From Parapedobacter composti (lineage in GTDB: Bacteria > Bacteroidota > Bacteroidia > Sphingobacteriales > Sphingobacteriaceae): a DNA stretch of 64,000 bases. Shown here piece by piece: positions 3,401 to 35,486 of the stretch (position 1 is the first letter of the stretch; each line of letters opens with the position of its first letter). Position numbers and translations under genes: made by a program. The stretch spans positions 62,001-126,000 of the forward strand of contig NZ_FOLL01000001.1 of assembly GCF_900112315.1 (NCBI RefSeq), given 5' to 3'. The notes beneath the pieces are model-generated. The model searched no databases, was not told where the DNA came from, and was given only the letters and a program-made list of their open reading frames with translations.

Positions 3401-4052
3401 CGGACTCTATTCCTTCCGTTTTGCCACATTGGATGAAAACGGACTGCCCCTGTTTTATACGGCGGATAGCCGCCTGTCCAACTCATTTTCCAGATATACT
3501 ACCAATCTGGATATGCTAAAGTACGAAGGCAGTCGCGAGCCGCTCGGTTCAGGGGGGCTGACCAACCAATTCCAGTACAAAAACATCAGCCTATCGTTCC
3601 TATTTACTTTTTCCTATGGTAACAAGATTCGCTTGAACCCGCTGCTGAACCGGTATTTTTCAGACGTGGACGCACTTGATGCTGCCTTGGCCAACCGGTG
3701 GACCACCCCCGGCGATGAGCGGTATACCAATGTTCCCCGGATTATCGAGGAGGAAACACGGGCGCAGCTACTACAGGCCAATGCTGAACCGTTCATGGCC
3801 TACAACAGGAGCGACATCCGGGTGGCCGATGGGTCATTTATCCGGTTTAAAAACGTCATGATAGCTTATGATATTCCCCATGTGTTGGCCGACCGGTTGC
3901 GGGTAAAGAACTTGAAGATTACTGCGCAGGCACAAAACTTAGCTTTGTGGGCCGATCCCAGCCTGAACGGGCAAGACCCCGAAGCCATTGTGTCAGGTAT
4001 TTTCATACCGGCAGCCACCAGCTATACATTGGGGCTTAATTTAAACTTTTAA
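456..4052 (+). CDS. SusC/RagA-family TonB-dependent outer-membrane receptor with STN signalling domain
   Basis: A 1198-residue outer-membrane transporter for a bulky nutrient, energised by TonB. Order: signal peptide (about 1-28), STN/secretin N domain (about 30-85), carboxypeptidase-regulatory-like beta-sandwich (about 126-190), TonB plug starting at 'EDVVVTGYQV' (about 205) with the SusC signatures 'IRIRGNSS' and 'PLWVVDG', then a long beta-barrel ending in an aromatic 'LGLNLNF', normal for insertion by BAM. The STN domain means it probably signals to the FecR encoded just upstream. ATG 456 is preferred to the TTG two codons earlier. The SusD-like partner follows after 13 bases. The substrate cannot be read from the sequence. 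Confidence 0.96.
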   Translation: MGLKLITKCLVWLLFFCFYAMASVSAGQQRQFSMTAKQISLKALFNEIKKQTNLVVFYNNDLLDDEEKVDVAFTRAPLKDVMQTVLRGKALSFRFTDSYIILARSVADSTRTPPVSNGTLSQQDSIVTLSGKVVEGEAENPLAGVTIQFADGTGTTISDEEGRFRITGKKGTRMTFQYVGYAPLELRLGVDNLSPVRLTPRMETLEDVVVTGYQVIDKRTFTGSVGKVDPEGLATAGISDVGKALQGMVAGVAVENTSGTFGTKSKIRIRGNSSISGNQEPLWVVDGVVLDDPVNVNPNQLYSGDAATMLSSAISGINPDDIEDIQVLKDASATAMYGTQAVNGVIVVTTKKGRAGQTNVSYKNNFSMALKPSITSFNVMNSKQRMEFSEELYEKNIMDFTNLNSTYGAFGKLLHQLSRKEITWEQYYDEIQRAKTYNTDWFDVLFRNSINQEHSVSLSTGTEKAQYYMSGSYFRDDGQTRNQYVDRFSGNLKGNFNLSDKFSITGTLYGSVRNQRSFGAFDEHVSGGLPQRDYDINPYTYARTTSRAMRPYNDSGELEFYQAHFAPFNILHEMDNNFVDIKLKEIRFQLDGLWKITSNLNYSFILSARGTSAMSEHISTELSNVAQSYRAMQSVAIRSANDRLYDDPYDDSEYRISVLPRGGIAMVDNNQGEFYTVRNMLNYKPVFNNVHILDLMAGTEIKQRKYNNYHFTAYGLEYYRGLTASPDYRAIQRDQLSATGSPYYNLGLNTYREASFFANLAYSYDNKYNVTLSTRADGSNRLGASERFRFLPIWVAGVSWNVDNEAFLQDVQWLDFLKVRGSYGTRGNISGLGSPELLAYYGTTTRFNPNEVENIISIEAPDNPTMQWEKEKMANAAIEFGLFSRVSATLEWYHRDNYDLIGAIQVSRASGFTQRTMNWADMRNEGFEVTLSMQQIKRHNFQWSTIFTYGYNKNEVTRLQTSNGVIRQTHDRGAPMLGRPVAGLYSFRFATLDENGLPLFYTADSRLSNSFSRYTTNLDMLKYEGSREPLGSGGLTNQFQYKNISLSFLFTFSYGNKIRLNPLLNRYFSDVDALDAALANRWTTPGDERYTNVPRIIEEETRAQLLQANAEPFMAYNRSDIRVADGSFIRFKNVMIAYDIPHVLADRLRVKNLKITAQAQNLALWADPSLNGQDPEAIVSGIFIPAATSYTLGLNLNF

Positions 4053-23459: not shown

Positions 23460-24317
23460 CTAATTTTCAATGAGGTCATACACACGTACGTAGTCGATCT
23501 CCATGCTGGCCGGGAAGGCTTCTTCATCTACTCCTTGCTGACCACCCCAGTTACCACCCACAGCGATATTGATGAGCCAATGGAACCGTTTGTCAAAGGG
23601 CCAGGCCTGGAAGCCGGTGCGCTCGTTGGGAAAGTCAAATATTTTGACGTTATCTACAAACCCGCGGATATAGTCGGGCGTCCAATCCACCCGGTAAAGA
23701 TGAAATTCGGTAGTAGCGTTTTCGATTTTCCTGGTACCGGTTTTGTGCGTATTGATGGCGTGGTTGTAGGCCTGCGTATGTACGCTGATGTGCACAACGT
23801 CTTGGTCATGCCCTACGTGTTCAAGGATATCTATTTCGCCGGAGGCGGGCCATCCACCATAAGCCCAGTCGGTGGGAAGCATCCATACGGCAGGCCATGT
23901 GCCCCGGCCGGGTGGCACTTTGGCCCTTACCTCGAACCGGCCGTAGAGAAAGTCGGCCTTGCCGCGGCTTACCAGGCGGGCAGAGGTGTAATCAAAGCCT
24001 TCGTATTCTTCCTTGATGGCCGTGACGGTCAGTACACCGTTAGCCACCTGCGCATTATTCAGTCGTTTTTCTGTGTAATATTGCAGCTCGTTATTGCCCC
24101 AGCCGTTGTTTTGCGACCCCACATCGTAGCCCCACTTCGACTCATCGGGAAGCCCATCGTAGTCAAATTCGTCTGCCCATGAAGGTGTGGCCGCAAACGT
24201 GTATTCTTTGGGCTGGGGCGGCTGGGGCATGGGGATGTTGGGTTTCTTGGGCTCTTTGCTGCAAGCAAGGAGCAGCAGGGGAATGAAGATGAAGTTCGAC
24301 ATGTGATTGATGTTCAT
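23460..24317 (-). CDS. Glycoside hydrolase family 16 lipoprotein (beta-glucanase/laminarinase)
   Basis: 285 residues, lipoprotein signal (LLAC, Cys19; a start at 24302 would leave a very short signal). GH16 catalytic motif '[10 protein letters not shown]' with nucleophile and acid/base glutamates either side of the aspartate, preceded by '[12 protein letters not shown]' and '[11 protein letters not shown]'. '[14 protein letters not shown]' near the C-terminus is typical of the endo-1,3-beta-glucanase branch. It cuts beta-1,3(-1,4)-glucan at the cell surface for the SusC/SusD pair of this locus. Last gene of the operon. Confidence 0.93.
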
Positions 24318-24355: not shown

Positions 24356-25285
24356 CTAATTGACGGAACGCAGCGTATACGTCCACCAGCCCGGGCCGCC
24401 GATGTTTACACCGATTTTCAGGATATCGTACCCTTGGCCATTGACGTTCTGTTCCATCGCTATGATATCATATGTGATGGTGTTGCCTACGGGGCCTGTG
24501 TTCGTTTCGCCGCCATTGTGCGCCTTTTTGACGCCGATATGGGCGCCCCGTCCGTTTAGCCGCAGCTGGCCGAGGCCATTGACACCCCCGCCTTCTATGA
24601 CGGTGAAGCTGAACGTTCCGGAGTTCCACGCGGCTTGGTCGCCTGTGAGGTTACTTGCCGGCTCGCAGCCGCTGGAACCGTTGCCCAGGTAACCGTCTGC
24701 GTAGAAATCACCTTTGTTATCATAGATAAAAGTGCCTTCGGGGTTAAAGACAAAGGTGAATTCGTCATTGAATTCACAGGCGCGGAGCGTTAAATCGGCT
24801 GCGCCAAGCGACCACCAGTTGCCATTGTCAGGCCCTTCACCTACTTTAAATGCACCGGCTTCTGGGTTGATGCGCCATACTTTTTGCGTACATCCTGCAA
24901 TAAAGCCCAATAGCCGATCAGGATTACAGGCGGTTGGATCGTTCTGGGCGATGGTGACCTGTTTAGTGACCGTAGCTGTGCCTCCTTTGGCCACCGCCAA
25001 TAATGTGATATTGTAGGTGCCGGCAAAGGTGAGCCGAAGGGTGGCGGTGTTGCCTTCCAGTTTTTGCCCTGTGGTTTCCACTTCCCAATAGGCAATAGAG
25101 GGTTCTGATGTCCGGTTCACTAAAATTACCGTATTGGCATCATTGCCTTCTTGGATCTCAAAGTCAGCCGCAGGAAGCGCACCCAATGTAAGGTCGTTAT
25201 CCGAAGTGGTGCAGGCATGGGTAGTTATCAGCAGGGCCAATAGCTTGATTCCATAATGGACGTTTTTCAATGTTATGGTTTTCAT
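24356..25285 (-). CDS. PKD-like surface lipoprotein, probable glycan-binding protein
   Basis: 309 residues from ATG 25285; lipoprotein with Cys25 (THAC). The N-terminal part (about 35-115) looks like a PKD/Ig fold ('YWEVETTGQKLEGNTATLRLTFAGTYNITLLAV' split by strands). The C-terminal 190 residues are rich in Trp, Gly and Asn ('GNWWSLG', 'GPGWWTYTL'), as expected for a beta-sandwich carbohydrate-binding domain. It sits between SusD and GH16, the place of SusE-like glycan-binding proteins in laminarin loci. No catalytic residues seen. Role is inference from position and composition. Confidence 0.78.
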   Translation of the reverse strand: MKTITLKNVHYGIKLLALLITTHACTTSDNDLTLGALPAADFEIQEGNDANTVILVNRTSEPSIAYWEVETTGQKLEGNTATLRLTFAGTYNITLLAVAKGGTATVTKQVTIAQNDPTACNPDRLLGFIAGCTQKVWRINPEAGAFKVGEGPDNGNWWSLGAADLTLRACEFNDEFTFVFNPEGTFIYDNKGDFYADGYLGNGSSGCEPASNLTGDQAAWNSGTFSFTVIEGGGVNGLGQLRLNGRGAHIGVKKAHNGGETNTGPVGNTITYDIIAMEQNVNGQGYDILKIGVNIGGPGWWTYTLRSVN

Positions 25286-25314
25286 GTTGTTGAAAAGTTT
25301 GAAGCCAATGAATA

Positions 25315-26838
25315 TCATTTTGTACCTCCCCATTCGCGGCTTTGCTCAAGCGCAGTGTTTTCCAATTCCAACAGCGGTATGGGTAAGATTTCGTGTTTGC
25401 CGTCCACAAATCCTTTCCATCCCAAAGCCGCGGGCGCGTCGCCCCAACGGATAAGGTCAAACCAGCGTTGCCCTTCGCCCACCAGCTCTATGCGACGCTC
25501 GCGCTTGATGTTGTCCATGGTTGCCGCCACGGGACCCAGGCCGACCCGATCGCGCACAGCATTCAGCAGATTCGCGGCGCGGGTGATGTTGCCGCCGCCG
25601 CGCACCAAGGCTTCTGCTTCCATCAAATAGGTGTCGGCGAGCCTTATCTCGTAGGTGTTCTGCGGAAAGTTCAATTCCGGGCTTCCGGCTCCGGTCCACC
25701 GGTCTTTTTCGCGCCCGGCATATTTTTCGATAAAATAGCCCGTATTCATGTGCCCGCTTTCGTAATTGGCGATGATGCCGTTTTCCAGCAGGCTGTTCAT
25801 GTCGGCCACCGTGTGCGGATAGCGCGGGTCGTCACGCATAAGATCCACCAGGTTGGTTGTCAGTGGGAAAAAGCCCCAGCCTGAAACATAGTCGGGCGCA
25901 CCGGGATTAGGGGTATATCCCCGTGGGCCCGACATGATGTTCAGGATGTTGCCCTCGGTACAGGGAATGCAGGCCCAATCGCCGATGGACGTGTTGGTAT
26001 GTGAAATTTCAAAGATGGACTCGCTGTTGAATTTGTTGTCAACTTCAAAGAGGTCGCCGAAATTATCCAGCAGGCGGTATCCGTATTGACTGGTGCCGCC
26101 GGGTTCGCCGTTGACTTCGGCCAGTTGCTGCGCGGCCGGCTCAAACCGTTCCAGTTGGAGGTATACGCGGCCCAGCAATGCCCTTGCTGCACCCTGTGTG
26201 AGGCGCCCGCCTTCAGTTGCCACCGGAATGGTGGGAGGGAGGTCCGGAATGGCTTCGGTAAGGTCTTGCTCAATCCGGGCATAGACGTCTTCGGGTGGCG
26301 CTTGCAGCACGTTGTACATTTGATCGGCAGGCACGGGTTCGGTCAACAGCGGAATGTTTTTAAAGAAGCGCACCAAATCAAAGTAAAAATAGGCCCTCAA
26401 TGCCTTTGCTTCTGCGGTATATCTCCTTTTCAGGCCCTCATCCATAGGGATGTCAGGCAATTTCTGCAACAGGATGTTAGCCCGGAAAATGCCGGAATAG
26501 CCTTTTCGCCATAACTCTTCCTGTGGCCCCAGGTCTGGTGTGAGTGTATAGTCCGAGACCACTTGAAGCTGTGGCTGGTCGGTTCCGCCGGGACCGCCAC
26601 CGGCATAATGGTCGTCAGAAGCAGGCATCAGAAAGGTGAGTTTGGAGACATAGTTGGCGCTTTGCCAGCCGACCACGTCATAGATGGCTACTAACCCGTT
26701 AAAGGCCTCTTGCTGGTTCTGGTAGTAATTGGCTTCCAAATCCGTGCCCCGGGGTTTAATGTCCAGGAACGAATCGCTGCACGCACCGGCTGCCACGGTC
26801 ACGGCGAGCAGAAAAAGATGATTGCTATATTTTTTCAT
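25315..26838 (-). CDS. SusD/RagB-family lipoprotein of the beta-glucan locus
   Basis: 507 residues from ATG 26838; lipobox AGAC (Cys20) followed by 'SDSFLDIKPRGT', the usual SusD N-terminus. TPR-like helices carry 'EAKALRAYFYFDLVRFFKNIPLL', and the C-terminal 'IKRERRIELVGEGQRWFDLIRW' is the family hallmark. It starts 13 bases after the SusC stop. It binds the oligosaccharide at the cell surface and closes the SusC channel. Confidence 0.96.
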   Translation of the reverse strand: MKKYSNHLFLLAVTVAAGACSDSFLDIKPRGTDLEANYYQNQQEAFNGLVAIYDVVGWQSANYVSKLTFLMPASDDHYAGGGPGGTDQPQLQVVSDYTLTPDLGPQEELWRKGYSGIFRANILLQKLPDIPMDEGLKRRYTAEAKALRAYFYFDLVRFFKNIPLLTEPVPADQMYNVLQAPPEDVYARIEQDLTEAIPDLPPTIPVATEGGRLTQGAARALLGRVYLQLERFEPAAQQLAEVNGEPGGTSQYGYRLLDNFGDLFEVDNKFNSESIFEISHTNTSIGDWACIPCTEGNILNIMSGPRGYTPNPGAPDYVSGWGFFPLTTNLVDLMRDDPRYPHTVADMNSLLENGIIANYESGHMNTGYFIEKYAGREKDRWTGAGSPELNFPQNTYEIRLADTYLMEAEALVRGGGNITRAANLLNAVRDRVGLGPVAATMDNIKRERRIELVGEGQRWFDLIRWGDAPAALGWKGFVDGKHEILPIPLLELENTALEQSREWGGTK

Positions 26839-26851
26839 GGTTGTTTTCAAC

Positions 26852-29800
26852 TTAAAATCCAACATTCAGTCCGATCATAAAAGAACGCGCCTGCGGGTAG
26901 ATTCCGCGGTCGATGCTCATCACACCTCCACCGATTTCGGGGTCGTATCCCGTATACCGGGTGAACGTCAGCAGGTTTTCGCTCATCAGGTAGATCCGGA
27001 TTTTTTGGAGTCCGATCCGCTGGGTCATGTCATTGGGGAGGGAATAGCCTAACTGTACGGTTTTAAACCGGAAGTAGGATCCGTCTTCCAGATAGAAATT
27101 CGAAGGATTGCCGAAATTCCGGTTGGTATCGTCGTCGGTAAGCCGTGGGTAGGAATTGGTCGATCCCGGCCCGGTCCATCGGCCCAGCGCCGCCCGTTGG
27201 TAATTGGCTGCTGCGATTTCCAGCCGCCTCAATCCCTGGAATATTTTATTGCCTGCGACACCCTGGCCAAAAACGACCGCGTCAAAGCCATTCCAGGCAA
27301 CATTCAGCGTGAAGCCGAACGACCAGCTTGGCGTAGGATTGCCGATGACCATCCGGTCGTTTTCCGTGATTTGCCCATCGTCGTCTATATCGGCCCATTT
27401 GAAATCTCCCGGCCGGGCGTTAGGCTGGATAATGGTTCCTTCGCTGTTGCGGTATTGGTTCACTTCTTCTTCCGTCTGGAACACGCCGAGTGTTCTGAAG
27501 CCGAAGAAGGAATTAAAGGGTTGCCCGATGGTGGTACGGGTGATGGGATAGGTAGACGCCTGGAATCCTTCACCTCCGGATAGGAAACCGATATTCGGCC
27601 CTAAGTTTGTAACCTCGTTCTGCATGTAAGACGCATTGCCCGCGAGGGAGAAATCTACCTGCCCCAGTTTGTTGGAATACCCGAGCTCCAGTTCCACCCC
27701 GCTGTTCTTCATGTCGGCGACGTTGGCTGCCGGATTGGAAATGGCGCCTACATAGCCGGGAATGCGCGGGTTTTGCAGAATCCCGGTGGTAATTTTCTGG
27801 TACCAGTCGAACGTGGCGGTGAAGTTACCGAGGAAAACAGCATCGAAACCGATATTGGTTTGGCTGGTTTCCTCCCAGCGGAGGTCGGGGTTCGCCGGCG
27901 CATTGGGACTGTACCCCACGAAGTAGCTGCCCGATGTGCCGATGGCGTAATTCCGGCCGCTGCCGATGGTAGACATGTAGGCGAAATCGCCGATGTTGTC
28001 ATTCCCTACAACGCCGTACCCACCGCGGATTTTCAGCAGATTGACAATGTCGTTCTTCGGAAAAAAGGTCTCGTTAGTGACATTCCACCCCAGGGAGAAC
28101 GAGGGGAAGACACCGTAGCGATTGTTCGTGCCAAACCGGGATGAACCGTCTCTTCTTACTAAAGCCTCTACAATATAACGTTCTTGGTAGTTGTAGTTTA
28201 TACGCGCAAACAGTGAACTGACCGCATGGCCCGGTGCTTCAGAGCCGGACGCTATCCGTTGGTCGGGCGGCACATTGAAATTGAGCGATGCGTCTTCAAA
28301 GTTCGTGGCAGGAATGTTGTCATACCCCACGCTGAGGCCTCTGGCCCGGTTATCCAGATAAGCCCCTTGCCCCAACAGTACGGTAAAGTTGTGGTCGCTG
28401 AGGTTTTTCGTATAAGCGATGGTGTTTTCCAGGTTCCAGTCGAACCCACTGTTCATGCCGCGGGTAAAGTTGGTCTGCGTGCTGTTTTGGGCGGTGTTGG
28501 TGCTTACATAATAAATCGGGCGGAAGGTCTCCGAACCCCAATATGATAGTTTTGCGCCGAAGGTTGACCGGATGGTCAGCCCTTCAATGGGTTTGATTTC
28601 GGTATAGACGTTTCCGATGATGTTATCAGACCATCCGTGATTTCCGAGCCGGGTGGCGATATAGGCCAATGGGTTCACCATTTCTTGGGTGACGCGGCGC
28701 GATATGCCATAGGGACGGCCGTTGGCATCGCGGACCACAGGATTGTCGGTATAGAGGCCATCCGCGGCTGCTTCCGGATCGGTAACGATGGCGGGAGTTA
28801 GGGGATCGAGGTGAATCGCTGAGCTGAGCGGGCCACCGTATTCGCTGTTCGTGTTGCCGATACCCACTGACTTGTCCCTTGCGTATCCCAGGTTCTGTCC
28901 GATCGTGAGCCATTTGGCGATGCGATGCTCGGAGTTGAGCCGGATGTTCGTGCGGTTGTACCGCGAAATATCCGTGGCCACAATGCCTTCTTGATCCCAA
29001 TAACCGAAAGAGGCGTAAAACGTTGAACGCTCATTGCCACCGCTGACGCTGAACTCATGGTTATGGCGCTGCGCATTGTTGTTAAACAGGTGCGACTGCC
29101 AGTCGGTTCCTTCACCCAGCGCTTGGGGGTCGTTGAATACGATGCCGTTTCCGGCGGCCAGGGACGCCTCGTTACGCAACGTGGCGTATTCGGTGGCGTT
29201 GAGCAGGCTCAGTTTTCTCGCTGGGGCAGATGTGCCGTAGAACGCGTTGTAGTTCATCCGTATTGCGCCTGCCTGGCCTTTTTTAGTGGTGATCAGAATA
29301 ACGCCCGCGGCCGCGCGGGCGCCGTAGATGGCTTGCGAAGCGGCATCTTTGAGCACTTCAATGGATTCGATGTCCGACTGGTTGAGGTAGCCGATGCCAC
29401 CTGCGTCAACCACCACACCGTCTACCACCCAGAGGGGGTTGTTGTTGCCGAACGTGGTGATGCCGCGGACGCGGACGGTGGCGGCTGATCCCGGCTGTCC
29501 TGAGTTAGAAGCAATGGTGAGGCCGGAAGTTCTGCCTTGTAGCGCCTGCTCAACCCGGTATACCGGCATGGTTTCCAGGTCGGCCGCCTTCACGCTGCTG
29601 ATAGCACCGGTGACCACGCTTTTCTTTTGCGTGCCGTAACCCACAACGACGACTTCATCGAGTGTGCCTGTGTCTTCGTCCAACGCTACATTGATGGTGC
29701 CACTTTCATTGATCACCCGGTGTTGGGTAGCCATGCCCAACTGTGTAAAGACCAATACCGATCCGGCACCGGGTACCGTGATGGTGTAATGTCCTAAGTC

Positions 29801-29974
29801 GTTGGTGCTGGTCGCAATGGTTGTGCCCTCTACCGTCACCGTAACGCCCGGCAGACTACTGCCATCCTTTGCTGCGGTGACCTTTCCCGTTACCTGCAAC
29901 GACTGGGCAGCAAGTGTAAACGGCGAGAGGTACATACACAGCATCACGAATGCATGTAAAGCTCCTTTTTTCAT
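26852..29974 (-). CDS. SusC/RagA-family TonB-dependent receptor of the beta-glucan locus (no STN domain)
   Basis: 1040 residues. Signal peptide (about 1-23), carboxypeptidase-regulatory-like domain (about 26-100, 'VTGKVTAAKDGSSLPGVTV'), plug from about 106 ('DEVVVVGYGTQKK', then 'VRVRGITTFGNNNPLWVVDG') and a barrel ending 'FMIGLNVGF'. There is no STN domain, so it does not signal through FecR; the local propeller/LuxR regulator takes that role. Followed closely by SusD, a PKD-like lipoprotein and GH16, which predicts uptake of beta-1,3-glucan (laminarin-type) oligosaccharides. Confidence 0.96.
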   Translation of the reverse strand: MKKGALHAFVMLCMYLSPFTLAAQSLQVTGKVTAAKDGSSLPGVTVTVEGTTIATSTNDLGHYTITVPGAGSVLVFTQLGMATQHRVINESGTINVALDEDTGTLDEVVVVGYGTQKKSVVTGAISSVKAADLETMPVYRVEQALQGRTSGLTIASNSGQPGSAATVRVRGITTFGNNNPLWVVDGVVVDAGGIGYLNQSDIESIEVLKDAASQAIYGARAAAGVILITTKKGQAGAIRMNYNAFYGTSAPARKLSLLNATEYATLRNEASLAAGNGIVFNDPQALGEGTDWQSHLFNNNAQRHNHEFSVSGGNERSTFYASFGYWDQEGIVATDISRYNRTNIRLNSEHRIAKWLTIGQNLGYARDKSVGIGNTNSEYGGPLSSAIHLDPLTPAIVTDPEAAADGLYTDNPVVRDANGRPYGISRRVTQEMVNPLAYIATRLGNHGWSDNIIGNVYTEIKPIEGLTIRSTFGAKLSYWGSETFRPIYYVSTNTAQNSTQTNFTRGMNSGFDWNLENTIAYTKNLSDHNFTVLLGQGAYLDNRARGLSVGYDNIPATNFEDASLNFNVPPDQRIASGSEAPGHAVSSLFARINYNYQERYIVEALVRRDGSSRFGTNNRYGVFPSFSLGWNVTNETFFPKNDIVNLLKIRGGYGVVGNDNIGDFAYMSTIGSGRNYAIGTSGSYFVGYSPNAPANPDLRWEETSQTNIGFDAVFLGNFTATFDWYQKITTGILQNPRIPGYVGAISNPAANVADMKNSGVELELGYSNKLGQVDFSLAGNASYMQNEVTNLGPNIGFLSGGEGFQASTYPITRTTIGQPFNSFFGFRTLGVFQTEEEVNQYRNSEGTIIQPNARPGDFKWADIDDDGQITENDRMVIGNPTPSWSFGFTLNVAWNGFDAVVFGQGVAGNKIFQGLRRLEIAAANYQRAALGRWTGPGSTNSYPRLTDDDTNRNFGNPSNFYLEDGSYFRFKTVQLGYSLPNDMTQRIGLQKIRIYLMSENLLTFTRYTGYDPEIGGGVMSIDRGIYPQARSFMIGLNVGF

Positions 29975-30049
29975 AATGGCAATTTATTAATAGGGTTAAA
30001 AAAATTGGTTCTACGCTTTTAACGCATCAAGACGCGATGAAGCATTGAA

Positions 30050-30057
30050 CAAAGCTA
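30050..30057 (-). promoter_or_regulatory. -7 promoter element of the beta-glucan operon
   Basis: TAGCTTTG on the minus strand, an exact TAnnTTTG, 75 bases before the susC start. No good TTG is found 19-21 bases upstream, which fits a promoter needing an activator. Confidence 0.5.
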
Positions 30058-30092
30058 TAAGGATTGGTCGGAAAAACGTGTTTTCAGGCCAT

Positions 30093-30161
30093 CTACATCT
30101 CCCCTACAAAACCAAAGGGATAATGGTAATGCACCTATAATACACCTACATGACCACTACA
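30093..30161 (-). promoter_or_regulatory. Array of helically phased CTACA/TGTAG direct repeats upstream of susC
   Basis: CTACA occurs at 30093, 30104, 30146 and 30157, and CTATA at 30135. The steps are 11, 31, 11 and 11 bases, so all lie on nearly one face of the helix. On the minus strand the units read TGTAG or TATAG. They end 35 bases upstream of the -7 element, where an activator would bind. The regulator gene next door is the natural candidate. Confidence 0.5.
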
Positions 30162-30200
30162 CGTAAGTTATAACATATTGGTTTTAAATGGATAACGATT

Positions 30201-33110
30201 TTATTGTTTTTTGGTGAATTGCAATAGGAATTCATAGAGGTTTTGCTCGGGATTGAGCTTCAATTTTTTGCGAAGCCGATAGCGACCCACCTCTACCGCT
30301 TTGATGGTAATATTCATTAATTGCGCAATTTCTTTAGAAGATAGGTTCATGTGCAGGAAGGCACATAGTTTCAGTTCATTCGGCGTAAGCTCGGGATATT
30401 CTTCCTTAAGCGTGGTAAAGAAGCCCTCGTTGACGTGGTTAAAATGTTTGCTGAACTGCTCCCAGTCTTCATCGGCGCGCTCTGCAGATCGGATAAGCCG
30501 GATTAGCTGCCGGAAATTAATGGTGCTGTCGTTGAAATGGTGTTTCTTGATGACTGCCAATATGGTTTCTTTGATTTTAGCCAATGCTTCGCCTCGTTGA
30601 ATGAGGTGCATGGTCATATTAGCCAATTCTTTATTTTTGAATGCTATTTCTGCCTCCAGTTTTTCATTCCGCAGCCGGACGACTTCCTTCTCGCTCCGGT
30701 CAAGTTCCAGTTGGCTCAGATACAACTGATGTTGATGCTTCCGTTGGAGCTTCTTTTTCTGCCACTTGAATAACAGGTAAATAAGCACTGCGGTTAGGAT
30801 AACATAAACCGTATAACTCACCGGATTGGCGTACCAGGGCGGAGCGATGAAAAAAGGGTATTTGCGTACAGTAGACTCGTTGCCGTTACTGTTTCTGGAT
30901 TTTACGTTGAAGACGTATTGGCCGGGAGGGAGGTTGGTATACTCTTTTTCGCTCCGGTTGCTCCAACCTGACCAAGCTTTATCTATCCCGTCCAACAAGT
31001 AACTGAATTCTACATTGCTTTGTTGATCGTATAACGTGCTGGAAAAAGAAAAATGGAACGAATTAGATTGATAATGGAGCCGTTGTGATTTAATTTCAGG
31101 AGGAAGATGGCCGCCGAACAGTATGTGCTCTTTTTTTTCACGGTCTATTACCTTAACGAGATTGAGCAATACATCGGGTTTGCTGATGTCTTCCTTATAT
31201 CGCTTATAGTTGAGGTGTATAGCGCCTTTATTAGCCCCAATGAGAATGTTTTCGTCATTCAACGGATAGATGCTTTCGAACCCGCCGAGCAGTTTGCCGT
31301 TCAGTTCAGGAAAATATGTAACGGTAAACGGGGTTTTGGTATTTGATTGCCCGAAATCGATTACGCCCAATTTCTTATGGCTGGTAAACCATACATTGCC
31401 CTCCTGGTCTTCTTTGAGGTACTGGATGGGAACACCTTGGAGTTGCTGGTGGAACAAGGAAGAAGGCACAAAGCGGTTTGCTGCTGCATCGTATTCATAA
31501 ATGCCGTCAATGGTGGCCACGCTGATTTTGTTTTTAATCAGGAATAGGTGGTTATATAGGGCCGAGGGCAAGCCGTCTTTATCCGTATATATTTTTTGGT
31601 CGGTTACGCTGCCCATGTCATCAGAAAGGAAAAGTTTGAACACACCGCGATAGGGATGGGATGCCCATATGGCGTGCTCATTATCATCGTAATGGATAAA
31701 ACGCAGCGACTCATAGGGGCCGTCTGTTCGCCCACCGTCATAAAACGTTCCATTGCTGAACGTCAGGTGTTGCAAACCGAGGTAAGTGCCTGCAATGATT
31801 TTTTGCGAAGGAAACACGCGCGATACCGGCTGGAACATCCAGGTGCCCGGAACGGCGTAAATCCGGCGCGCGGTGGTGCCCGCTACGTCAAATGCACCGT
31901 CTTCATGCCCCATCAAGAGCCGCCCGTTGATTTCCGTGAGGTTCCAAACTTGGCCTTCGGTGTGGGGTACTTCTGAAAAAGCGGCGGTTGAAAGGCTCAA
32001 GTCGCGCCATTTCGCATCAATGGGCGTGGTGTATAGACCGTTAGATGTGCCGATATACAAGCGCCCGCCATGCAACTGGATGGCGTAGGTACTTACCGGA
32101 TTGGTCTTGTTGGGCTGGATGTATTTGATGGCGCGGTTAATGCCGATGAAATCAATGCCGTCGTCCAGTGCTAACCACAGATTTTGATTCCGGTCGATGA
32201 AGACATTACGGATGTTGTTATTCTGAAGCCCTTCGCCATATACATATTGCTGCACCAGGTTGCCCTGTTTATCCACAATCAGTATGCCCGCTGAGGTGGT
32301 GCCGAATACGAACCAATCGGCATTCAAAGGCCGGCCGGCATAAATCCGATCGATGGCGAAAACTTCATCCAGTGGAGTACGCTTGGCGATGAGCCTGTGG
32401 TCCGTAAGGAAAAACAGGCCATGCTTCAGCGTAGCCACCAACAGGGTGTCCTTGCCGTAGGGCATTATGGCGGTTATCGTGGCATGGTCAAGGTCAGGAT
32501 GCCGGGCTACAGGTTTCCAAAAGCCGTTTTCATATCGCAGGATGCCTTGTTGCTGTGCTTGGGCATACACGTATCCTTCAGCTGCACCCATGAATTTCCA
32601 TTCAACAATAGGTTTGTCAACCTTGATTTGTCCATCTTTATAATGCAGTAATTTGGTGTTGGTTCTGAAAAAAATGTGGCTATCCATAATGGCGATATCC
32701 CAGACATCCGCAAACTGCCGCTCTTGTGGCGGAATTAAATGAACCAGCGAATGATAACGGAGTATGCCAATACTGTCCGTCTCAAAATATCCCAGTTCAT
32801 CCTGCCCGCCGACATACACACGGTTATGTGCGTCTATGGCAATGGAGCGCACTACAGTGGCGTTTGGTAAGGGGTAAATATTCCAATACCGGCCATTGAA
32901 GGTAAGCAACCCTTCGTTGTTGCCGAAATACATGATACCGTGGGTATCTTGAGCGGCTTCCCAATTCTGCAACCCACCCCTGTACTGGTCGTTATTATAA
33001 TTAATAATTTGGGGAATGGCCACCCGATGTTGAGCGAGGGACGTTGCCCCCAGCAGCATACAGCAATACAGCAGGAGTAAGGGGCGGGTAGGATTTTTAT
33101 GCAGGATCAT
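30201..33110 (-). CDS. Membrane-anchored beta-propeller sensor with LuxR-type HTH (Y_Y_Y domain, no kinase)
   Basis: 969 residues from ATG 33110. Signal peptide or N-terminal anchor (about 1-26), a long two-component-regulator-type propeller region (about 35-640; repeated 'YVGGQDELGYFETDS'-like blades), Y_Y_Y domain (about 665-740; 'FSYLLDGIDKAWSGWS' and 'YTNLPPGQYVFNVKSRN'), one transmembrane helix (about 748-768), a charged coiled coil and a C-terminal LuxR-like helix-turn-helix (about 907-965; 'LTPNELKLCAFLHMNLSSKEIAQLM'). Histidine-kinase and receiver domains of classical hybrid regulators are absent, so it may control transcription directly from the membrane. Longer in-frame starts would overlap the divergent GH20 gene. 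It probably controls the SusC operon next to it. Confidence 0.88.
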   Translation of the reverse strand: MILHKNPTRPLLLLYCCMLLGATSLAQHRVAIPQIINYNNDQYRGGLQNWEAAQDTHGIMYFGNNEGLLTFNGRYWNIYPLPNATVVRSIAIDAHNRVYVGGQDELGYFETDSIGILRYHSLVHLIPPQERQFADVWDIAIMDSHIFFRTNTKLLHYKDGQIKVDKPIVEWKFMGAAEGYVYAQAQQQGILRYENGFWKPVARHPDLDHATITAIMPYGKDTLLVATLKHGLFFLTDHRLIAKRTPLDEVFAIDRIYAGRPLNADWFVFGTTSAGILIVDKQGNLVQQYVYGEGLQNNNIRNVFIDRNQNLWLALDDGIDFIGINRAIKYIQPNKTNPVSTYAIQLHGGRLYIGTSNGLYTTPIDAKWRDLSLSTAAFSEVPHTEGQVWNLTEINGRLLMGHEDGAFDVAGTTARRIYAVPGTWMFQPVSRVFPSQKIIAGTYLGLQHLTFSNGTFYDGGRTDGPYESLRFIHYDDNEHAIWASHPYRGVFKLFLSDDMGSVTDQKIYTDKDGLPSALYNHLFLIKNKISVATIDGIYEYDAAANRFVPSSLFHQQLQGVPIQYLKEDQEGNVWFTSHKKLGVIDFGQSNTKTPFTVTYFPELNGKLLGGFESIYPLNDENILIGANKGAIHLNYKRYKEDISKPDVLLNLVKVIDREKKEHILFGGHLPPEIKSQRLHYQSNSFHFSFSSTLYDQQSNVEFSYLLDGIDKAWSGWSNRSEKEYTNLPPGQYVFNVKSRNSNGNESTVRKYPFFIAPPWYANPVSYTVYVILTAVLIYLLFKWQKKKLQRKHQHQLYLSQLELDRSEKEVVRLRNEKLEAEIAFKNKELANMTMHLIQRGEALAKIKETILAVIKKHHFNDSTINFRQLIRLIRSAERADEDWEQFSKHFNHVNEGFFTTLKEEYPELTPNELKLCAFLHMNLSSKEIAQLMNITIKAVEVGRYRLRKKLKLNPEQNLYEFLLQFTKKQ

Positions 33111-33218: not shown

Positions 33219-35486
33219 ATGGCTCAATATGCTCTCCGGCTCATGTTGGGTTTCTTGGTCATGCCGTCCGTCTGGGTAGTACCCGCTTTTGCCCAGGATG
33301 AGGTAGCCATCATTCCCCAACCCAACGTATTGGAGCTTCGCGAAGGGAAATATGTGTTTCCTGCAGCTACTCCCGTCTATGCATTCGAGCCGTTTGTGGA
33401 AGCGGCGTCACTCCTAACCGATCACCCATCGGCACACTTCCTGGAAGTACAGCGGATACGATCGCACAGGCGGCTACCGGAAACCGGAGTGCGCCTTGTA
33501 CAGGCCCGTGACGCGGATAAATTACCGGCCGATGGCTACCGTCTGGTGGTTGACACCAGCGGCATTGTATTGACCGCCCATCATGCACCGGCGATGGTCA
33601 ACGGGATATTAACCCTGTTGCAATTGGCCTACACGCTGCCAAACGATCGCGAATTGCCCGCCATGCATATAGAGGATAGACCCCGCTTCGGGTACCGGGG
33701 GCTGCACCTTGATGTGGCCCGGCACTATTATCCGCTGCCTTTCCTTAAGAAGTTTGTCGACCTCATGGCGCTGTATAAATTCAACAGGTTCCATTGGCAC
33801 CTTACGGACGGACCAGGGTGGCGGCTGGAAATCAAACGTTATCCTGAACTCACGGAGAAGGCCGCCTGGCGTACCCACGCTAATTGGAAAGATTGGAACC
33901 AGTATGGCAGGCGTTACCTGCAAGCCGGCCACCCGAACGCCAGCGGCGGATATTATACGCAGGAAGAGGCGCGAGAGCTGGTTGCTTACGCTGCACGGAA
34001 AGGTGTCACTGTCATCCCTGAAATCGAAATGCCGGGGCACTCTGACGCCGTGTTGGCCGTTTATCCGCAGCTTTCCTGCACCGGACAGCCATACCGCCAT
34101 GCTGAGTTTTGTGTGGGCAACGAGGAGACCTTTGCGTTTCTCACCCACGTATTGGACGAAGTATTGGATATCTTTCCCTCGGAATACATTCATATCGGCG
34201 GCGACGAAGTAAATAAAGCAGCCTGGGCAGCTTGCCCTAAATGCAAGGCATTAATGGAAAAAGAGGGATTGAAAGATGTGGATGAATTGCAACGCTACGC
34301 AGTTGAGCGTATCAATGGCTACCTAACATCGCGCGGGCGCAAACTTATCGGTTGGGATGAAATCATGGCGGGCGGATTGCCTAAAGGGGCCACCGTGATG
34401 AGCTGGCGCGGTGAAGAAGGCGGTATAAACGCCGCCAACGCGGGCCACGATATCATTATGACACCGAATACCCACCTTTATTTTGACTACTACCAGCAAG
34501 ACCCGCGTTCGCAGCCGGAAGCTATAGGCGGATATATCCCGTTACAACAGGTGTATGCATACGAACCCGTTTCTGAGGGGATTGAAAAGGATAAAGCCAA
34601 ACATGTGCTGGGTGCGCAGGGCAATGTTTGGACGGAATACATGCCTACGACGGAACACGTGGAATATATGACGTTTCCCCGGGCGTTGGCGTTGGCGGAA
34701 GTGGTGTGGTCCGATCCATCGCAGCGCGACTGGAAAAGTTTTTCGGAGCGGCTACGGCGCCATTACCGTTTGCTGCAACGCTGGAAGGTAAATTACTGCC
34801 GTCCGTCTTATGCTGTAAATATTGCTGTTGATTTCAATGCCGATACGCTTACCAACACCATTTCGATGACGACTGAACAGTTTGAGCCGGGCATCCGCTA
34901 TACCACGGATGGGGAAGAGCCCAACGCACAGTCGGCACTGTATACCAAGCCCATTGAATTGGCGGTGCCGGCCACGGTCAAGGCGGCCTACTTTGTCGAT
35001 TCGGGCCGTGCCGGCCCGGTGGCCATGGCTAAAGCCGACATCCATAAAGCCATAGGAAAGACCCTCACTTACCAAACCCCTTGGGATACCGCCTACGCGG
35101 CAACAAAGTCGGACGCGCTGGTTAATGGACGGAAGGGTAGCCAGTATCCGGATGATGGACAATGGCAAGGCTTTAAGGGTAATGTGGATGTTGTTTTGGA
35201 TTTTGAACGTAGGGAGCCGGTGACCTCCATCGCCATCAATTTTTTGCATGCTCCGTCGGCGGAAGCCTGTCTGCCCGGCGAAGTGACGGTCTTGGTTTCA
35301 GATAATGGCAAGAATTTCCGGGAGGTGGGGGTAGTAAAAGGCGGAGCCCAGCCATCAACAGGCTACAGCGAAGTTAAGGCCTATGAGTTCCGCTTTGATA
35401 AGCCTCAAACGGCAAGATATATCCGCATTGTAGCCACCCGTGTTCACGGTGAACGGCTGCTTGCCGATGAGTTAGTGGTATATTAA
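33219..35486 (+). CDS. Glycoside hydrolase family 20 beta-N-acetylhexosaminidase
   Basis: 755 residues with a signal peptide ending at 'PAFAQ'. Order: GH20b N-terminal domain (about 30-140), catalytic TIM barrel (about 145-500) with 'HIGGDEVNKAAW' carrying the Asp329-Glu330 pair (acid/base Glu and substrate-positioning Asp), a chitobiase/hexosaminidase C-terminal-type segment ('IRYTTDGEEPNAQSALYTKP', about 560-605) and an F5/8 C-like domain (about 625-755). It releases terminal GlcNAc or GalNAc in the periplasm or at the surface. It is divergent from the beta-glucan regulator, but its chemistry does not match glucan, so shared regulation is not certain. Confidence 0.95.
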   Translation: MAQYALRLMLGFLVMPSVWVVPAFAQDEVAIIPQPNVLELREGKYVFPAATPVYAFEPFVEAASLLTDHPSAHFLEVQRIRSHRRLPETGVRLVQARDADKLPADGYRLVVDTSGIVLTAHHAPAMVNGILTLLQLAYTLPNDRELPAMHIEDRPRFGYRGLHLDVARHYYPLPFLKKFVDLMALYKFNRFHWHLTDGPGWRLEIKRYPELTEKAAWRTHANWKDWNQYGRRYLQAGHPNASGGYYTQEEARELVAYAARKGVTVIPEIEMPGHSDAVLAVYPQLSCTGQPYRHAEFCVGNEETFAFLTHVLDEVLDIFPSEYIHIGGDEVNKAAWAACPKCKALMEKEGLKDVDELQRYAVERINGYLTSRGRKLIGWDEIMAGGLPKGATVMSWRGEEGGINAANAGHDIIMTPNTHLYFDYYQQDPRSQPEAIGGYIPLQQVYAYEPVSEGIEKDKAKHVLGAQGNVWTEYMPTTEHVEYMTFPRALALAEVVWSDPSQRDWKSFSERLRRHYRLLQRWKVNYCRPSYAVNIAVDFNADTLTNTISMTTEQFEPGIRYTTDGEEPNAQSALYTKPIELAVPATVKAAYFVDSGRAGPVAMAKADIHKAIGKTLTYQTPWDTAYAATKSDALVNGRKGSQYPDDGQWQGFKGNVDVVLDFERREPVTSIAINFLHAPSAEACLPGEVTVLVSDNGKNFREVGVVKGGAQPSTGYSEVKAYEFRFDKPQTARYIRIVATRVHGERLLADELVVY

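Follow-up and report, generated by a model that had tools for sequence, protein, structure and literature searches.

Upstream of a susC-like gene in Parapedobacter composti (genome size, 4.6 Mb), short TGTAG repeats recur at 11-bp steps, raising the question of whether they constitute an operator and, if so, which protein reads it. We examined this locus within a window of 64,000 nucleotides, by which we mean the whole stretch of DNA that was analysed. On the minus strand the gene order is regulator, array, susC, susD, a 325-aa protein and GH16. The regulator gene (30201-33110) comprises 1039 codons and is predicted to encode a propeller, a Y_Y_Y domain, one apparent membrane helix (judged by eye), a coiled coil and a LuxR/GerE-type helix-turn-helix (HTH). 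Its start is more likely the ATG at 33110, which is signal-peptide-like, than the TTG at 33320, which gives the longest open reading frame; the frame beginning at this TTG overlaps a divergent GH20 gene (33219-35486, plus strand). Open reading frames and Pfam matches identify a susC-like TonB-dependent transporter (26852-29974) as the first gene of the putative target operon, followed by a susD-like protein (25315-26865), the 325-aa protein (24356-25333), which has a lipoprotein-like start by eye and no match in Pfam or NCBIfam, and a GH16 beta-glucanase-like protein (23460-24317). The array sits in the 226-bp gap between the regulator end at 30201 and the susC start at 29974, 40-108 bp 3' of the regulator stop codon.

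Four copies of CTACA, equivalent to TGTAG on the minus strand, start at 30093, 30104, 30146 and 30157. The initial annotation had described five CTACA-like elements, these four and one at 30135, with steps of 11, 31, 11 and 11 bases, and its coordinates proved correct in the re-read letters. However, the element at 30135 reads CTATA (TATAG on the minus strand, 30135-30139), one mismatch from CTACA. It lies in phase with the others; a near-TGTAG at this place, 22 bp past the first element, occurs in only two of 44 non-redundant promoters (less than 75% identical to one another), one of which is the window's own. A set of five equal elements was thus ruled out, and only four, arranged as two pairs, are conserved. 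The conserved unit consists of two 16-bp boxes, each of the form TGTAG-N6-TGTAG, that is, an 11-bp direct repeat: a predicted distal operator box, TGTAGTGGTCATGTAG (30146-30161, minus strand), and a predicted proximal operator box, TGTAGGGGAGATGTAG (30093-30108, minus strand), both of which are conserved in relatives. In the window the box starts are 53 bp apart, giving TGTAG steps of 11, 42 and 11. TGTAG alone showed no enrichment within the window (83 occurrences versus 74.7 expected), nor was TGTAGN6TGTAG enriched genome-wide, with 5 matches, 2 of them belonging to this array, versus 17 for a backward control. It is the arrangement rather than the abundance of TGTAG that is unusual, and it is far beyond chance. 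Pairs of TGTAG at a step of 11 occur twice on the minus strand of the window, both times in the array, and not at all on the plus strand. When 200,000 first-order Markov sequences were built from the intergenic region itself, none contained two 11-bp TGTAG pairs on one strand, which the window holds within 69 bp; a single such pair appeared 76 times, and four or more TGTAG per strand 25 times. Thirty of the 301 family genomes contained the strict double-box pattern, a single time each; the backward control gave 0 of 301.

Thirty loci containing regulator orthologues were fetched, and presence of the array was scored after the regulator end. The initial annotation had proposed searching for the array upstream of susC genes in relatives, and the two-box layout was indeed present in all 29 loci in which susC or GH16 follows the regulator; in the thirtieth (L018) another gene follows, and the array is absent there. 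Absence of the array from close relatives with the same locus had been named as evidence that would speak against an operator. Instead, it is carried by all five of the other Parapedobacter genomes that have a regulator 70-73% identical to that of the window. A wider named scan covered the 80 closest of 442 relatives, ranked by HTH similarity. The array, with no more than one of its 20 core bases mismatched, was present in 71 of these best 80 loci, and in 68 of the 71 a susC-like gene lies within 700 bp of the regulator stop. In two loci (L176 and L182) a PL14-like gene stands between regulator and array, and the array is still approximately 180 bp from susC; in another of the best 80 (L206) it precedes GH16 instead of susC. 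Of the nine array-less loci in this set, eight lack a susC-like gene beside the regulator; in the ninth (L224) the contig ends 87 bp past the regulator stop. We also observed that Solitalea-type genomes (L031/L143 and L036/L206) have the array directly before GH16, without susC, and that two further hydrolase-like genes follow GH16 in L143. Six cases came from other genera (Siphonobacter, two Echinicola, two Algoriphagus and Pseudoflavitalea), implying that the arrangement either predates the window's family or has moved between families. Among 58 further, more distant regulator ends, the array was present in 9 and absent in 49, most of which appear to have no susC after the regulator in the stretch covered. 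In a class-wide sample, 3 of 395 genomes matched the strict array (control, 2), all three in the window's family, and none of the 380 genomes sampled from other families of the class did; as the named scan shows the array in some outside genera, it appears to be rare, rather than lacking, outside the family. A separate count of 40 out of 40 was not used as evidence because 11 of those loci had been picked after the array was already seen. The array loci should not be regarded as independent, since co-occurrence follows descent.

Geometry was analysed in 70 of 74 loci tried, with the box distance allowed to range from 40 to 57. Both distal elements had to be exact, which omitted three loci that do carry arrays (L161, L214 and L221); the fourth locus left out, L164, lacks an array. 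Box starts lay 43 (2 loci), 44 (2), 52 (1), 53 (27), 54 (37) or 55 (1) bp apart. Two Olivibacter loci (L210 and L032) can be read with a spacing of 43 or, if the fourth element has decayed, of 54. Within the proximal box the step was 11 in 60 loci and 12 in 10; the distal consensus of this set is TGTAGTGnTnATGTAGGG and the proximal one TGTAGGGnTnnTGTAG. In the 44 non-redundant promoters, 166 TGTAG elements point towards susC and 2 away, their spacings peak at 11, 42-44, 53-54 and 64-65, and the box distances are phased (R = 0.94 for a 10.5-bp period). This clustering at helical turns indicates that whole turns have been gained or lost, never partial ones.

The initial annotation had also placed an exact -7 element just downstream of the array, and this was borne out: TAGCTTTG, an exact sequence match to TAnnTTTG and the predicted -7 element of the susC promoter, occupies 30057-30050 on the minus strand, 40 bp past the last TGTAG element. 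In an unconstrained scan, 24 of 29 loci had TAnnTTTG 39-40 bp downstream of the last element; the other five have a near-match at 39-40 bp or, in L032, an exact TAnnTTTG at 51 bp, one turn further (a position set by hand). In the larger set, for which only offsets 39 and 40 were tried, TAnnTTTG was present in 64 of 70 loci. No -33 element stands out in the 70-locus promoter set. A poor -33 had been taken as a sign of an activator-dependent promoter, an argument that we do not retain: Flavobacterium johnsoniae is itself described as having no -33 motif identifiable genome-wide (PMC7366714), so a weak -33 is poor evidence for activator dependence. Right after the -7 element, a stem-loop is predicted at the start of the susC leader (30009-30049, minus strand), with its position kept and its sequence variable in relatives. 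Its mean z was -2.39, with z < -2 in 29 of 44 promoters (-1.5 in the window itself), versus 0 of 44 for both the box spacers and the next 40-base stretches; it possibly serves in mRNA protection or attenuation. An AT-rich leader block, AACCAATTTTTTTAACCCTATTAATAA, lies shortly 5' of the susC start codon (window approximately 30009-29977, minus strand) and is similar in relatives.

As judged from these sequence comparisons, the array is very probably the operator of the adjoining kinase-less and apparently membrane-bound one-component regulator, which would act as an activator of a beta-glucan polysaccharide utilization locus (PUL). The regulator might instead bind the array as a repressor, or as an autoregulator from the end of its own gene. 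The sign of control is not readable from sequence alone, and the short distance of the array from the regulator stop would suit such a role. However, both boxes are entirely 5' of the -7 element, with the proximal one at a nearly fixed distance from it, as in activator sites; the array stays with susC in L176 and L182 despite the intervening gene; and SusR is described as an activator (PMC3878776). We consider repression or autoregulation unlikely.

If the array is an operator for the susC operon, its binder could be another protein, such as a hybrid two-component system (HTCS), a second LuxR-type regulator or a nucleoid protein, with the neighbouring regulator acting elsewhere. The initial annotation had proposed the neighbouring regulator. 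We found that 26 of the 30 strict arrays in the 301 family genomes adjoin an orthologue of this regulator, and that all 71 array loci among the best 80 of 442 carry its HTH, one of them with a swapped sensor. In Hufsiella arboris (G001 = L190; L139 3089-4813) the array is kept before a SusC that is 48% identical to that of the window, and the adjacent regulator is a 574-aa protein composed of 7TMR-DISM, coiled coil and HTH. Its similarity to the window's regulator is confined to the part beginning at residue 870 (65% identity over 170 aa). Retention of both HTH and array through this sensor swap indicates that the array tracks the HTH and not the propeller. In Sphingobacterium olei (G216 = L164) regulator and array are on different contigs: no susC accompanies the regulator on its contig, and the array precedes a susC/susD pair that has no gene of regulator size immediately before it; this SusC is only 39% identical to that of the window, and the genome has a second regulator homologue. 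This unlinked array would fit a different binder, as would two of the 30 pattern matches (G052, L140 approximately 1043; G087, L141 approximately 1010-1059), which have another spacing, with starts at 0, 11, 34 and 45, and are not beside the regulator; one precedes an ankyrin-repeat gene and the other is near a reading frame without a Pfam match. Against a different binder stand the adjacency to the orthologue, the constant presence of the HTH even under a swapped sensor, and the absence of strict arrays from the 380 class genomes sampled outside the family. In addition, the repeats bound by Bacteroides HTCSs are described as approximately 21 bp apart (PMC3878776), not 11. We regard another binder as quite unlikely. 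Taken together, the adjacency in 26 of 30 cases, the Hufsiella sensor swap and the S. olei unlinking point to the HTH as the binder. The earlier proposal of the neighbouring regulator is supported, with the array following its HTH across genera and not the propeller.

A paralogous propeller-LuxR regulator, encoded in the same genome (L048) and in relatives, is not accompanied by this array in L048 or in any of 30 loci. A different conserved pair, CACTACATCATTACCTCTCAT and GATGTATTAATGTAGAGG, was noticed before its susC in most of 24 loci (L048 5690-6080, on another contig of the same genome; also L228-L255). The distance between the two parts is commonly 143-144, 152-153 or 164 bp, with 131 and 161 seen once each, and these roughly helical steps suggest that DNA looping may take place at the paralogue's operator. 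A search for further sites of the present array in its own genome, allowing up to two mismatches, returned 34 matches versus 63 for the backward control, with only the distal box at one mismatch, and an extended regulon was rejected. Exact single boxes numbered 20 across 14 genomes, one of which (G022) has no array; 16 of these boxes are parts of arrays and 4 are found at other places (control, 2). One operon seems to be served per genome. Separately, a second 11-bp direct-repeat array, with the core TATAGGG, was observed 1.25 kb past the right end of the window (L288 approximately 3754-3785; G000:C30:127253-127281), with a divergent LacI-type regulator gene on one side and a nitrilase-like gene on the other (both named by eye); exact TATAGGG 11-bp pairs occur in 4 of 9 Parapedobacter genomes, and control matches in 2.

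In most loci the array is directly 3' of the regulator stop, as would be expected if the repeats acted at the RNA level, whether in the regulator 3' UTR or in read-through RNA, where they might, for instance, bind a protein or terminate transcription. However, a gene separates array from regulator in L176 and L182, and the S. olei array is unlinked altogether; the spacing shifts by DNA helical turns, which an RNA element would not need; the array holds its distance to the promoter element; and the minus strand from 29900 to 30300 contains no terminator-like site. An RNA element is accordingly highly improbable. The elements are short (5 bp) and a local repeat, TAATACACCTA occurring twice, could stem from slippage, but the idea of functionless chance or decaying microsatellite repeats can be dismissed for practical purposes given 0 of 200,000 simulations, 30 of 301 genomes versus 0 of 301 for the control, and conservation among promoters less than 75% identical.

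The proposed binder is the C-terminal HTH region of the regulator (30204-30392, minus strand). Pfam matched only Y_Y_Y, Reg_prop and GerE in the regulator and found neither kinase nor receiver domains; an AraC-type HTH was found neither by Pfam nor by structure comparison. The closest solved structures to the propeller sensor with its Y_Y_Y domain are HTCS sensor domains. GerE scored 20.2 for the full-length regulator, below the Pfam cut-off of 23.5, and 24.1 for the C-terminal piece alone; 12 of 13 members matched GerE at E <= 0.01, and Sigma70_r4_2 also matches weakly. An AlphaFold2 model of the HTH (mean pLDDT 79.8) gave as its best structural match the C-terminal domain of DosR (Z 10.5, 65 residues, 2.0 A), and the other top rows displayed in this comparison were of the same kind; Foldseek returned no match at E <= 0.001. 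The C-terminal fold is thus predicted to be of the LuxR/NarL kind. A hydrophobic stretch at residues 829-857, picked from the letters by eye, is the candidate membrane helix between sensor and HTH.

From the boxes, their spacings, their conservation and their linkage to the HTH, we infer binding, stoichiometry, activation rather than repression, and ligand as follows. The periplasmic beta-propeller would detect a beta-glucan breakdown product, a ligand proposed on the grounds of the GH16 gene and of what such sensors are known to do. From there the signal would pass via one membrane helix to the coiled coil and alter the pairing of the cytoplasmic LuxR/NarL-type HTHs. The 11-bp direct repeat suggests that every 16-bp box holds two HTHs in head-to-tail orientation, each on a monomer site of approximately TGTAGKGnT, with a step of 11 bp. 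The distance of four or five helical turns between boxes on one face of the DNA suggests that two membrane-anchored dimers may act together at the membrane. Finally, the proximal box ends 24 bp before TAnnTTTG, and this nearly fixed distance suggests that protein bound there touches RNA polymerase directly, a contact that would start transcription of the operon comprising susC, susD, the 325-aa protein gene and GH16.

On the whole we lean towards a broader interpretation, in which the array exemplifies a widespread and undescribed operator code for kinase-less propeller-LuxR PUL regulators. Boxes with 11-bp repeats would each be read by two HTHs, and box pairs four or five turns apart by two membrane-anchored dimers. 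Coiled coil, HTH and operator would form a cassette that is plugged into different sensors (propeller, 7TMR-DISM), and a sister subfamily would use a different operator with parts 143-164 bp apart in roughly helical steps, suggestive of DNA looping at the membrane. Operons of the susC/susD kind are numerous in Bacteroidota, and most of the known or predicted operators belong to the HTCSs and SusR-like regulators of gut Bacteroides. If correct, this interpretation would define, down to single letters and with rules for spacing, the operator of one more regulator class, present in Sphingobacteriaceae and in some genera of the Cytophaga and Chitinophaga types. It would allow the target operon to be named from sequence and would offer a clean system for learning how a promoter is located and activated by a DNA-binding domain held at the membrane. 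The exchange of a sensor in nature suggests that operators and sensors can be recombined.

The initial annotation had called operators of this kind not well described, and this agrees with our searches of the open-licence literature, in which no account of an operator for regulators of the propeller-LuxR type turned up; the texts on Zobellia carrageenan and on beta-1,3-xylan that came up concern other regulators. The C-terminal domain shares its predicted HTH fold with LuxR/NarL (GerE) response regulators that have phased sites, such as DosR, LiaR, VraR, NarL and DegU, and DegU-like proteins have direct-repeat sites. Unlike the present regulator, these are soluble and mostly carry a phosphorylated receiver. 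A membrane-fixed one-component regulator that acts on DNA, as we propose here, is known from ToxR and CadC (PMC10269533), and ToxR recognises a direct repeat according to a title cited there. However, ToxR and CadC have another HTH type and another sensor, and the main text of that article contains no match to LuxR or propeller. For Bacteroides, Ravcheev et al. 2013 (PMC3878776) predicted direct-repeat motifs of HTCSs and SusR-like regulators by phylogenetic footprinting. In both the array and the HTCS operators described there, direct repeats face one side of the DNA ahead of susC/susD, and the presumed binder is a membrane regulator with a COG3292 propeller sensor. HTCSs are, however, described as having a kinase, a receiver, an AraC-type HTH and two sites on average 21 bp apart (PMC3878776), whereas the present system has no kinase, a LuxR/NarL-type HTH and two 11-bp pairs 43-55 bp apart; its steps of 11, 42-44 and 11 depart from the HTCS-type spacing of approximately 21 bp. 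With SusR it would share the role of a kinase-less membrane activator of a susC/susD operon and, as for the SusR operators in PMC3878776, its two sites point the same way, with a long spacer of whole helical turns between them that is not conserved. The described spacing sets the two apart: SusR sites are 67 or 77 bp apart (PMC3878776), whereas here the distance in 70 loci is 43-44 or 52-55 (search range 40-57) and each box is itself an 11-bp direct repeat. With a motif, a spacing and a regulator class of its own, the predicted array operator would work like HTCS and SusR operators and is a member of neither group.
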